Source of the DNA: Bacillus sp. Cs-700
GTDB lineage: Bacteria > Bacillota > Bacilli > Bacillales > Guptibacillaceae
Length of the DNA stretch: 64,000 bases
Assembly: GCF_011082085.1 (NCBI RefSeq)
Contig: NZ_CP041063.1
Span: 3,334,001-3,398,000 of the forward strand
Direction: 5' to 3'
Below the pieces are notes generated by a model. That model was not told where the DNA came from. It saw nothing but the letters and a program-made list of their open reading frames with translations, and ran no database searches. Positions 8,956-62,742 of the stretch are shown here, piece by piece (the first letter of the stretch is position 1; every line of letters starts with the position of its first letter). The translations under genes were made by a program, and so were the position numbers.

Positions 8956-8971
8956 GAAAATAATATTTGAT

Positions 8972-9206
8972 CGTCAGAGCGAAAGAGAGTAGTGTCTAAT
9001 GATGGATAAAGCGATTCGGGGATGGTGAAAGCCCGAAACCTAATCAGACATGAACCGGACTTTCAAGACACTGTTTTGAACTTCAGTAGAAACAGTCGGG
9101 CTCGTCCGTTATCCGAGTGAAGTTGGCTCAAGTATCTTTGTTGAGCAATCAGAGTGGTACCGCGGAAAAAAACTCCGTCTCTATTAGAGAGACGGAGTTT
9201 TTTTTG
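8972..9206 (+). ncRNA. T-box leader (tRNA-Arg sensing) with terminator
   Basis: tRNA-responsive leader for argS. Stem I is closed by AGTGTCT / AGACACT. The conserved T-box sequence AGAGTGGTACCGCGG is at 9151-9165, followed by a terminator (AACTCCGTCTC / GAGACGGAGTT, 9171-9206). In the expected specifier position after GAAC the bases are CGG (9056-9058), an arginine codon, which matches the downstream gene. The TGGT in the T-box would pair with a tRNA 3' end ACCA, that is discriminator A. Uncharged tRNA-Arg should favour readthrough. Confidence 0.93.
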
Positions 9207-35189: not shown

Positions 35190-36368
35190 ATGAAAGACGT
35201 TTTTATATTGGAAGGTGCAAGAACGCCATTTGGTTCATTTGGTGGTTCACTCAAAGATAGTAACCCAACAGCCTTAGGGATTTCAGCAAGTAAAGAGGCT
35301 TTAAGAAAAAGTGGAATAGAGGCTAGTGAAATTGATCTTACTGTTATTGGAAATGTGATTCATTCTACATCAAATGCTTCTTATTTAGCGCGTCACATTG
35401 CACTTGGGAGTGGAATACCTATTGAAAGTCCAGCACTAACAGTAAATCGACTTTGTGGTTCTGGTATGCAAGCTGTCATCTCAGCAGCGCAATCCATTAT
35501 GATGGGGGACGGTCAAACGGCCCTTGCCGGAGGAGCGGAGAATATGAGCTTATCTCCGTATACGTTAAGAGGAAGTCGTTTTGGAGCAAAAATGGGTGCT
35601 CCGAAAATGGATGACATGCTTTTAGCTACGTTAACTGATGAGTATACTGGAACTGGAATGGGGATAACGGGAGAGAATCTGGCAGTAAAGTATGGGATTT
35701 CTAGAGAAGATCAGGATGAATACGCAACTCAAAGTCAGCAAAAAGCTGCTGATGCAAGAGAAAAAGGTATTTTCATAGAAGAAATTGTACCTGTTGAAGT
35801 GAAGGGGAGAAAGGGGATTGAAACCTTTTCAACTGACGAACATATTCGAGAAGGTACAACACCAGAAAAGCTAGCCGCGCTTAAACCTGCTTTCAAAAAA
35901 GATGGAACTGTCACTGGTGGAAATGCAAGTGGCATAAATGATGGAGCCGCTTCTGTCGTATTGGGAGGAGCAGATTATGTCTCTTCAAAGAATCTTAAGC
36001 CACTTGCTCGAATTGTCTCCTGGGGAATAGCGGGAGTAGATCCTTCAATTATGGGAATTGGACCAGTACCTGCTATACGGCAAGCATTAGATAAAGCAGG
36101 TATGACACTTCAGCAGATGGACTTGATTGAAGTGAATGAAGCCTTTGCCGCTCAGTATTTAGCCGTTGAAAAAGAGCTAGAGCTTGATCGCTCACGAGTG
36201 AATGTGAACGGTGGTGCAATTGCTTTAGGGCATCCAGTAGGTGCGAGTGGCACGCGCATTCTTTATACACTTATAAAAGAATTAAAGCGTAGAAATGGAA
36301 AGTATGGTGTTGCCTCACTCTGTATTGGTGGCGGACAAGGAATTGCTATGGTGGTTGAAATCATTTAA
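35190..36368 (+). CDS. Acetyl-CoA acetyltransferase (thiolase)
   Basis: 392-residue thiolase splitting acetoacetyl-CoA into two acetyl-CoA. Active-site Cys89 in '[11 protein letters not shown]', the HxG motif in '[16 protein letters not shown]' and the second cysteine in '[13 protein letters not shown]' are all present. TGGAGGGG precedes the start. It completes the route 3-hydroxybutyrate to acetoacetate to acetoacetyl-CoA to acetyl-CoA, but a 98-base gap with its own cre and promoter-like boxes lets it be expressed separately. Confidence 0.94.
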
Positions 36369-36382
36369 TTTGTCAGAAAAGA

Positions 36383-36411
36383 TTGCCAATTAACTAAAGA
36401 TTGCGTATACT
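36383..36411 (+). promoter_or_regulatory. Sigma-A promoter of the rsgA-like attenuator unit
   Basis: TTGCCA (36383-36388), exact 17-base spacer, TATACT (36406-36411). Confidence 0.75.
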
Positions 36412-36445
36412 AAGGGTACTAACATACGGAAAGGGGTTGTGCATA

Positions 36446-36505
36446 ATGGTAAATAACAAAATGAATTCATTGTTAATTGCATATTGTGCACAGTCCAATT
36501 GGTAA
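36446..36505 (+). CDS. Candidate regulatory leader peptide (19 residues)
   Basis: ATG at 36446 after AAAGGGG encodes MVNNKMNSLLIAYCAQSNW and a TAA stop. It sits between a good promoter and an intrinsic terminator in front of the rsgA-like gene. Its last codons (GCACAGTCC, 36488-36496) can pair with the 5' strand of the terminator, so the position of a translating ribosome could decide termination. This is the layout of ribosome-mediated attenuators of ribosome-protection and antibiotic-resistance genes in Firmicutes. Confidence 0.6.
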   Translation: MVNNKMNSLLIAYCAQSNW

Positions 36506-36542
36506 GGTAGGAGTTCTTTTCTTACTTCTGATTAATATGATC

Positions 36543-36589
36543 AAAAACCATGGGCTGTGCGACTGTGTCGCTATGTCTATGGTTTTTTA
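36543..36589 (+). terminator. Leader terminator (attenuator)
   Basis: AAAAACCAT (36543-36551) pairs with ATGGTTTTT (36579-36587), with an inner GCGAC / GTCGC hairpin (36559-36571) and a T-run. A TGATCA on each side can extend the stem. It lies about 100 bases before the rsgA-like start, with no gene of its own to end other than the leader peptide. Confidence 0.8.
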
Positions 36590-36689
36590 TACTTGATCAG
36601 CTAATGACTTACGCTGATTGTAGGATAAGAGCCGACACCACTGTACGGCTTTTTGTCATATTTACACTTATTAATCAGGAGGCTTTCAA

Positions 36690-37739
36690 TTGAATCGAAT
36701 AACATTAGGTTGGAATTCATACTTTGAAGAAAATTATCAAGCTATAGCAAATGGATTTATACCAGCTCGAGTTATAGTAGAACATCGTGGAGGGTATAGC
36801 GTCTCTACAGGAGAAAGTTCTTATGCAGCAGAACTTTCAGGTAAGTTCCGATTTGAAGTAACACGGCGTGATGCTTTGCCAGCAGTTGGTGACTGGGTTC
36901 TTATTGCTCCTAAAACGGATAACAAAGCAATTATTCACGATCTGCTACCGAGAAGAAGTAAGTTTTCAAGAAAAATTGCAGGGACGACAACTGAGGAACA
37001 AATTATTGTAGCTAATGTTGATACGGTTTTTCTTGTCAATGCATTGAATCAGGACTTTAACCCAAGTCGTATTGAAAGATACCTTGTCATGGCGTGGGAA
37101 AGCGGTGCTAAGCCGGTTATTGTACTCAGTAAAGCTGATCTTTGTACTGATGTAGAACAGAAAGTAAGTGCTCTTTATAGTATTGCTGTAGGTGTACCGA
37201 TCCACGTAGTGAGTTCGGCGACCGAAAAAGGGATTGATGAATTAAAAAAGTATTTAACAGAGGGAACGACCACAGCCTTGTTAGGTTCGTCAGGTGCTGG
37301 TAAGTCTACGCTCATAAACAAATTATACGGCAAAGAAATTCAGGTTGTACAAGGTATTCGCCAAGATGACGGCAAAGGAAAGCATACCACGACTAGTCGA
37401 GAGCTGATAACGCTTCAAACAGGTGGCGTACTAATTGATACGCCTGGAATGAGAGAACTTCAGCTCTGGGAAACCGATCATCTTTCTCAAAGCTTCCCTG
37501 ATATTGATGCATTTGCAGAGGAATGTCGTTTTAGAGATTGCCAACATGAAGGTGAACCTAAATGTGCAGTGAGAAATGCTATAGAGGAAGGAATGTTAGA
37601 AGAAAGAAGGCTTGAGAATTATAAGAAGTTCCATCGTGAGCTAGCTTTTCTTGAGCGACAAACAAATAAGAAAGCACAGCTCGAGGAGAAGAAAAAGTGG
37701 AAAAAAATCGCTGGAGATCGAACTAGAAAGAATCGCTAG
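36690..37739 (+). CDS. Ribosome-associated GTPase, RsgA (YjeQ/CpgA) family paralogue
   Basis: 349 residues, TTG start seven bases after AGGAGG. An N-terminal OB-fold (about 1-90) precedes the circularly permuted GTPase domain: G4 'VLSKADL', G1 'GSSGAGKSTLINKLYG', G2-G3 'TTTSRELITLQTGGVLIDTPG'. The zinc knuckle (CRFRDCQHEGEPKC) and a basic C-terminal helix follow. RsgA acts in late 30S maturation. The TTG start, length and the long OB region differ from the usual CpgA next to prkC, so this is likely an extra copy, possibly used under translation stress given its attenuator. Confidence 0.9.
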   Translation: MNRITLGWNSYFEENYQAIANGFIPARVIVEHRGGYSVSTGESSYAAELSGKFRFEVTRRDALPAVGDWVLIAPKTDNKAIIHDLLPRRSKFSRKIAGTTTEEQIIVANVDTVFLVNALNQDFNPSRIERYLVMAWESGAKPVIVLSKADLCTDVEQKVSALYSIAVGVPIHVVSSATEKGIDELKKYLTEGTTTALLGSSGAGKSTLINKLYGKEIQVVQGIRQDDGKGKHTTTSRELITLQTGGVLIDTPGMRELQLWETDHLSQSFPDIDAFAEECRFRDCQHEGEPKCAVRNAIEEGMLEERRLENYKKFHRELAFLERQTNKKAQLEEKKKWKKIAGDRTRKNR

Positions 37740-37768: not shown

Positions 37769-38266
37769 ATGACGGATGAGCGCTCTGTGTTAAACGATTA
37801 TGCTTCGCTAATTAATTGGTTAGAATCGACTGCGATGGAGATGAGCGAAACCATCTTCTTTCAGCCTATCAAGCAAGGGAAGTGGTCTCCAGCTGAAATC
37901 CTTTCCCATATCATGATGTGGGACAATTATCTTCTTAAAGAAAGAATTCCTTTTATTGAAATGGAAGCTAATTTGCCTAAACTTGATAACGTTGAAGAAG
38001 TAAATCAGCGCGCAGCAGAGTATGCGTTATCTGGTCTAAATAAAGAAAATTTAGTGGTTGAAACCGTAAAAGCACGAAGACGAGTGGTGGCCCGTCTTCA
38101 GCAATTTGAACCGATTCAGTGGAGCAACACGTTTTATATTGATAAGTATCCAATCTGTCTAACAAGTTATATCAAAGGTCTTATTGAGCACGATGATCAC
38201 CATAAGTTGCAAGTAGAAGTTTTTATGAACGAGCAAGGATTTTCCCTATCCCACTTTACCTTATAG
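37769..38266 (+). CDS. DinB-superfamily protein
   Basis: 165-residue four-helix-bundle protein with the likely metal-site histidines: 'PAEILSHIMMWDNYLLKERI' (His47) and 'LIEHDDHHKLQVEVFM' near the C-terminus. DinB/YfiT proteins bind a divalent metal; several are thiol transferases, others have no known role. AAGGAG precedes the ATG. It lies 29 bases after the rsgA-like gene with no terminator, so the two are co-transcribed. Confidence 0.82.
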   Translation: MTDERSVLNDYASLINWLESTAMEMSETIFFQPIKQGKWSPAEILSHIMMWDNYLLKERIPFIEMEANLPKLDNVEEVNQRAAEYALSGLNKENLVVETVKARRRVVARLQQFEPIQWSNTFYIDKYPICLTSYIKGLIEHDDHHKLQVEVFMNEQGFSLSHFTL

Positions 38267-44432: not shown

Positions 44433-44570
44433 CACCATCTTCTCCCATCCAGACTATACTGTCGGCTCTGGAATCACACCAGATCCTGCCCAAAAAACAG
44501 GCTCGCGGGCTTGAGGAATTGCATATCCTTCACCGCCGGTCGGGAATTACACCCTGCCCCGAAGATAGTT
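44433..44570 (-). ncRNA. FMN riboswitch (RFN element)
   Basis: Minus-strand conserved blocks: GGGGCAGGGTG, 'GACCGGCGG', 'AGCCCGCGAGC', 'GATCTGGTG' with 'GATTCC-GAGCCGACAGT' and the closing ATGGGAGAAG. All are RFN hallmarks in the right order. FMN should favour termination before ribU. Confidence 0.96.
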
Positions 44571-62602: not shown

Positions 62603-62742
62603 CCTCTTATCTTCCAGAATGAATAACATCCTGTTGGAAGTAGCACCGTGCCATCTAAGCCATCCTGAAAAGATGTACTTAAGAATAGGTCGGTTGCTGG
62701 GCGTCATAGGGCCAAATCCCTCAGCCTGCTCTTGATAAGAGA
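62603..62742 (-). ncRNA. SAM-I riboswitch (S-box)
   Basis: Minus strand CTCTTATC / GATAAGAG closing stem, 'AGAGCAGGCTGAGGGA', 'GGCCCTATGACGCCC-GCAACC', 'GATGGCACGGTGCTA-TTCC' blocks: all S-box hallmarks in order. SAM binding favours termination before mtnK. Confidence 0.97.

Follow-up and report, generated by a model that had tools for sequence, protein, structure and literature searches.

A probable ribosome-mediated attenuator ahead of a second RsgA gene in Bacillus sp. Cs-700 and other Bacillota

The question raised by the locus

Why should a second copy of the gene for RsgA, a GTPase of the small ribosomal subunit, be preceded by a short open reading frame (ORF) and an intrinsic terminator? 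The arrangement is found in Bacillus sp. Cs-700, in a stretch of 64,000 nucleotides (nt), here called the window (NCBI RefSeq assembly GCF_011082085.1, contig NZ_CP041063.1, positions 3,334,001 to 3,398,000, forward strand), taken from a single-contig genome of 4.3 Mb. The gene, named rsgA2 here, and its leader are the subject of this report. Judged from its sequence and from that of related leaders, the element is very likely a ribosome-mediated attenuator of the vmlR and bmrCD kind that controls rsgA2. The kind of switch is a known one; the type of gene that it serves is one for which we found no described case.

Anatomy of the leader

The leader is laid out as follows, with R1 to R4 denoting the strands of the switch and SD a Shine-Dalgarno sequence.

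36383..36411, + strand: promoter-like site TTGCCA-N17-TATACT (-35 at 36383-36388, -10 at 36406-36411)
36430..36436, + strand: leader SD, AAAGGGG, a moderate match
36434..36448, + strand: R1, 5' strand of the anti-antiterminator, covering part of the leader SD and the start codon; core GGGTTGTGC at 36434-36442
36446..36505, + strand: leader ORF of 19 codons, MVNNKMNSLLIAYCAQSNW and a stop, its ATG invariant in 31/31 aligned leaders
36482..36496, + strand: R2, switch segment near the 3' end of the ORF, pairing with R1; its 3' part, GCACAGTCC (36488-36496), pairs with R3
36525..36537, + strand: anti-SD strand, pairing with 36669-36681
36543..36589, + strand: intrinsic terminator hairpin and U-run; R3, GGGCTGTGC (36552-36560), lies in the 5' half, and R4 is the 3' half
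36627..36654, + strand: second, weaker terminator-like hairpin and T-run, AAGAGCCG...CGGCTTTTT, recurring in congeners by eye
36669..36682, + strand: rsgA2 SD region (AGGAGG at 36677-36682) with sequestering strand
36690..37739, + strand: rsgA2, TTG start, 349 amino acids, a paralogue of RsgA by domain, family and structure-chain matches

These strands form three pairings: R1:R2, adopted by the free leader, R2:R3, the antiterminator, and R3:R4, the terminator. Antiterminator and terminator exclude each other. The antiterminator consists of nine pairs, one of them G-U, between 36488-36496 and 36552-36560, and R1 (36434-36442, extending to 36448) likewise pairs with 36488-36496 (single-locus p 0.007 for this anti-antiterminator). 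The terminator fold (36543-36592) has an energy of -23.2 kcal/mol, and the helix between 36525-36537 and 36669-36681 contains most of the rsgA2 SD. The leader as a whole is very stable: z is -8.4 over 36425-36600 and -7.4 over 36425-36690, and none of 200 shuffles was as stable in either case.

An earlier note on this DNA had placed the promoter, the 19-codon ORF, the terminator, the TTG start with its AGGAGG and the nine-base pairing where they are found here. It had also credited the ORF with a good SD; the ORF stands, the SD is only a moderate match. Its two-state switch was right as to R2, R3 and R4 and missed the anti-antiterminator, the second terminator-like hairpin and the helix hiding the rsgA2 SD.

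General-purpose scans were less informative. In 36300-36800 a simple terminator scan gave no terminator, probably because the long interrupted hairpin exceeds its limits, and a promoter scan found 3 sites against a mean of 1.8 in shuffles, which is not significant on its own. By eye, a -10 box (TATACT or TATAAT) is present in 13 of 14 congeneric rows, the remaining one (L018) beginning too late to show one. Tandem terminators also recur by eye in several Paenibacillus and Cohnella leaders.

How the switch would work

When the cell is unstressed, the leader ORF would be translated fast, and the ribosome at its last codons would cover R2; after the ribosome departs, R1 would pair with R2 again. 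With R2 covered or bound to R1, R3 would be left to the terminator and transcription would stop at about 36589, while the second hairpin and the helix over the rsgA2 SD would silence transcripts that escape. A ribosome stalled within about the first six codons would cover R1, letting R2 pair with R3 and thereby blocking the terminator. The anti-SD strand, which sits in the loop of the R2:R3 hairpin, would be caught there, leaving rsgA2 translatable; the two helices together would make a pseudoknot and probably compete. The earlier note had proposed the same logic, early stalling giving antitermination and completed translation termination. It fits this anatomy and agrees with the conservation, the compensatory changes and the constant frame described below.

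Folding with ribosome-masked segments, before the 3' arm of the terminator exists, is consistent with this scheme. With the P site at codons 1-6 the antiterminator stands at 1.00, at codons 7-11 it stands at 0.52-0.98, and from codon 12 on at 0.01 or less. We infer that the switch responds to stalling, that such stalling arises from ribosome-targeting drugs or from other translation stress, that readthrough is kinetic and that RsgA2 relieves the stress. Induction by translation inhibitors would be expected from the architecture and from the logic shared with vmlR, bmrCD and hflXr.

Conservation of the switch

The association of the element with rsgA2 was examined with a search pattern containing no part of the gene, run on 397 genomes of the order to which the window belongs. 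It matched 26 genomes, in 9 of 135 genera, and the reversed pattern matched 1. All 26 matches, of which 14 are outside the genus, are followed by RsgA2 (51-100% identity), and an ATG in the same phase is present in 25. A similar pattern has a single match in the genome of the window, namely the locus itself. Within the genus the element is present in all 14 upstream regions, and in L023, from a different genus of the same family, it is kept with another peptide and with altered strands that still pair.

Covariation was counted on an alignment (A1) of 31 rows out of 33 candidates. The other two, L031 and L038, were left out because they have no CCATGG-type anchor, though a leader is seen there by eye, and the anchors of L018, L023 and L049 were placed or widened by hand. 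The antiterminator helix is paired in 97.8% of cells, against 14-54% when the partner is slid as a control, and four of its nine pairs show two-sided changes, a number reached by 8 of 500 shuffles. The terminator helix is paired in 94.4% of cells; 4 of its 8 pairs show a two-sided change, each in a single cell (0/500 shuffles). The distance from the ATG to R2 is 41, 44, 47 or 50 nt, a single frame, in 31/31 rows. Outside the genus R1 is out of register in A1 (5-7 of 9 pairs); the anti-antiterminator was therefore left uncounted there, and its support comes from the duplex-energy scan described below and from single-locus p-values. The helix hiding the rsgA2 SD has p <= 0.03 in 23 of 25 rows of the Pseudalkalibacillus group and Fictibacillus, and p = 0.003 in three Bacillus rows (L053, L056, L057) for which the gene start was corrected, the tblastn matches having begun inside the protein; in other late-starting rows, mainly Paenibacillus and Cohnella, the values rest on uncorrected starts. 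Of what the earlier note had sought among homologous leaders, covarying antiterminator pairs are present and a conserved peptide is not.

Distribution among rsgA2 loci

A duplex-energy scanner with fixed thresholds was applied identically to rsgA2 loci and to control genes, these being other genes from the window and from the locus flanks; it was written with these leaders already known. It superseded a scanner for uninterrupted helices, which found 34 of 91 loci; single mismatches or its U-tract rules made it miss the leaders of Fictibacillus and Bacillus. The named related loci are the best 80 of 85, and 76 were scanned, L087, L091, L097 and L100 having too little upstream DNA. A score of -14 or lower is reached by 39 of the 76 and by 0 of 271 controls. 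At the threshold of -12, 43 loci receive the transcriptional label, 4 of them also the translational one (controls 6/272). A further 12 loci are translational only (controls 2/272). An attenuator of either type is thus assigned to 55 of the 76 named orthologues and to at most 8 of 272 control genes. The labels are clustered on the tree: the three labels change 9 times there, compared with 27.8 times in shuffles.

The sequences that carry the switch differ among clades. Many Paenibacillus and Cohnella leaders have a different set, AGGAGGCTGATG with CATCGGTCTCT with AGAGACC, for which single-locus p-values are weak. In Sediminibacillus, Pontibacillus, Pullulanibacillus, Laceyella, Sporomusa and three Paenibacillus, the leader has a 3' end that pairs with a strand whose alternative partner is the rsgA2 SD; these leaders seem to be translational attenuators in which an early stall would likewise turn the gene on. 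Two Oceanobacillus loci (L095, L096) are labelled translational, yet have a terminator-like hairpin too.

Two variants may be mentioned separately. Four Fictibacillus loci (L033, L036, L042, L058) have about 230 nt extra, partly GC-rich, between terminator and rsgA2, so that terminator and start are 343-353 nt apart there and 112-122 nt apart in the other seven; the extra segment looks like a small inserted repeat element. In the Paenibacillus oryzisoli group (L043-L046, L050) the loci are leaderless by the scanner and by eye the upstream DNA holds a divergent TetR-like gene, which perhaps replaces the attenuator.

Evidence against the attenuator

Several results speak against attenuation of rsgA2 or narrow the support for it. 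The full-length fold favours the terminator at all ribosome positions (0.93-1.00), and without a ribosome the antiterminator stands at 0.73 before the 3' arm of the terminator appears; the switch must therefore be kinetic. Further pair types are not above shuffles, either in the antiterminator (249/500) or in the terminator (107/500). In Bacillaceae-type rows the single-locus p of the anti-antiterminator goes up to 0.08, and that of the Paenibacillus and Cohnella antiterminator ranges from 0.003 to 0.41. One locus, L129, violates the frame rule. Neither the shuffle p-values nor the alignment rows are independent, many rows being close kin, and since the rows of A1 are related, independent events are fewer than the counts.

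Substitutions in 12 congeneric rows, counted over leader codons 2-13, number 172, 127 and 117 by codon position; there is no third-position excess, and the leader peptide is therefore not protected as a peptide.

The scanner left 21 of the 76 named loci without a label: nine outside Bacillota (6 Ignavibacteria, 1 Bdellovibrio metagenome-assembled genome, 2 Marinomonas), five of the Paenibacillus oryzisoli group, and seven others. Among the unlabelled, a leader is seen by eye in L031, L038 and L094, L072 and L077 fall just above the threshold, and L060 and L099 also belong here. Some labels that were given may be wrong in turn: among the transcriptional ones, that of L054 looks spurious and so, perhaps, do those of L065, L070 and L075, and the translational labels of L027, L029 and L092 look spurious as well.

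Alternative explanations

The same geometry would work in an amino-acid attenuator of the trp type, in which the leader senses shortage of one charged transfer RNA, and in the leader ORF of the window N and L codons are indeed clustered and a CAG glutamine codon stands at R2. That codon lies inside R2, however, and a stall there would mask R2 and favour termination. Moreover, the peptides vary among clades with no common run of one residue seen, and rsgA2 is neither a biosynthesis nor a transfer RNA gene. We consider a sensor of this type improbable. A structured RNA bound by a ligand or a protein, possibly by RsgA2 itself in autoregulation, with the ORF incidental, is just as improbable. The very stable fold would suit it, and RsgA contacts helices of 16S ribosomal RNA (PMC8579695). 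Against this, the start codon and frame are kept in 31/31 rows and much of the intervening sequence is not, the leader ORF is retained in translational versions of different layout, and no Rfam family, T-boxes and riboswitches included, exceeds its gathering score at the locus. The best match below threshold, RF03533 (Clostridioides difficile small RNA SQ1002; 36444-36669, E 0.046, 19.3 bits where the gathering score is 128), spans almost the whole leader and is probably due to chance.

A thiolase-like ORF, so named from its translation, ends at 36368, just upstream, and the hairpin might be its plain terminator, complementary to the leader ORF by chance. This is very improbable in view of the compensatory changes, of the 26 gene-blind matches that all precede RsgA2, and of the absence of any control gene at the score reached by 39 rsgA2 loci. 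That the leader ORF encodes a functional small protein, as the likeness of the peptides within the genus might suggest, is equally improbable, given their dissimilarity across clades and the lack of a third-position excess.

The rsgA2 gene and its neighbourhood

The identity of the gene product is well supported. RsgA2 scores 191 bits against PF03193 (RsgA_GTPase; curated cut-off 30) and 183 bits against TIGR00157 (cut-off 100), and it matches the solved RsgA chain 5NO2 with an E value of 2.7e-39. Alignments with that chain and with the canonical copy show the circularly permuted G motifs, SKAD and then GSSGAGKS, HTTT and DTPG, followed by a Cys/His cluster. The nearest named relative by protein, among the best 80 of 85 loci, is a Pseudalkalibacillus hwajinpoensis strain (95% identical).

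The other strong RsgA match in the genome is an ORF at 217569-218543 (G000:C1) adjoining a prkC-like ORF, in the order fmt-rsmB-prpC-prkC-rsgA-rpe (names assigned from translations). The prkC neighbourhood identifies this as the canonical rsgA, and the window gene is therefore the paralogue, as the earlier note had suspected when it proposed looking for a canonical copy near prkC. Compared by eye with the canonical protein, RsgA2 has an LGW-type N-terminus, a basic tail and, ahead of the G domain, an additional segment. The canonical protein is separate from every rsgA2 row in the tree; it sits on a very long branch, which makes its placement unsure.

One further gene lies next to rsgA2 in the window:

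37769..38266, + strand: DinB_2 family gene by family match, a genus-specific neighbour 3' of rsgA2

The earlier note had taken it for a co-transcribed partner. In flanks of 1.5-3 kb, such a gene adjoins rsgA2 in 22 of 95 loci searched, which are 14 distinct genomes, all congeneric; as a neighbour in one genus only, it was rejected as an operon partner. Elsewhere in the window, three ordinary elements exceed their Rfam gathering scores: a T-box leader (8968-9185, +), an FMN riboswitch (44433-44570, -) and a SAM riboswitch (62604-62741, -).

Relation to described attenuators

The earlier note knew of no described case for rsgA, and this agrees with the literature searched: no rsgA attenuator is described among the matches listed in open-licence papers, subscription papers and preprints lying outside the search. 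RsgA does not occur in the main text of PMC7927858. The name rsgA2 was found in one paper, which deals with Lactobacillus plantarum and hydroxytyrosol and has no leader in the matching text.

The ermC-type attenuators are translational. Their sequestration of the SD is seemingly what the Sediminibacillus, Pontibacillus, Pullulanibacillus, Laceyella, Sporomusa and three Paenibacillus rsgA2 leaders use, whereas the window leader combines it with termination.

The closest described system, by likeness of architecture, is the vmlR leader of Bacillus subtilis (PMC9226507). In both, the leader ORF lies inside an anti-antiterminator hairpin, with an overlapping antiterminator and an intrinsic terminator. 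Both also have the downstream SD covered by a structure, which formation of the antiterminator relieves in vmlR and would relieve here. The third strand and the SD sequestration thus bring the rsgA2 leader closer to vmlR than to a two-state switch. The vmlR leader peptide also varies by species (MIN, MDN, MDK, MRK). The two differ in that vmlR encodes an ABC-F ATPase and its upstream ORF is 3 codons long, the SD lying outside the hairpin (PMC9226507), whereas the rsgA2 leader ORF has 19 codons and an SD partly inside R1.

Other systems share single features. In Listeria monocytogenes, the hflXr (lmo0762)/rli80 locus has a short leader ORF and alternative structures before a homologue of a ribosome-associated GTPase, as here, but its 14-residue peptide carries the macrolide-type RLR motif (PMC6310831), which is absent from the window's leader peptide. 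In bmrB-bmrCD of Bacillus subtilis the terminator is energetically favoured over the anti-terminator, as here, and the decision is described as kinetic, as it must be in the rsgA2 leader; the differences are a 53-codon leader, a terminator within the ORF and a multidrug transporter as the controlled gene (PMC4191407). For Streptomyces coelicolor, SCO6149/SCO5211 (RsgA/EngC) appears in a list of gene pairs in which WblC activates one member and the other is its paralogue (PMC7157823). There an RsgA paralogue, going by the RsgA/EngC name, is grouped with genes activated under tetracycline, although control in this WblC/WhiB7 system is by a transcription factor (PMC7157823).

Implications

The Streptomyces pair is an independent hint, by analogy, of a stress role for RsgA paralogues. 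RsgA binds the 30S subunit at decoding-region helices (PMC8579695), so it is at most a fair guess that RsgA2 helps to clear or re-mature 30S subunits hit by drugs. More broadly, and tentatively, since we put it at somewhat less than an even chance, RsgA2 may represent a widespread, undescribed class of inducible GTPases for 30S ribosome protection or rescue, silenced by transcriptional or translational attenuators that were rebuilt with unrelated sequences across Bacillota while the rule that an early stall turns the gene on was kept.

The analysis marks the second RsgA of many Bacillota as a gene probably switched on by ribosome stalling. If so, a housekeeping family of assembly factors becomes a candidate family of stress or intrinsic-resistance factors. 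The leaders would also form a natural series, one switch in transcriptional and translational versions with its sequence replaced and its logic kept, that may be useful for the study of attenuator evolution.
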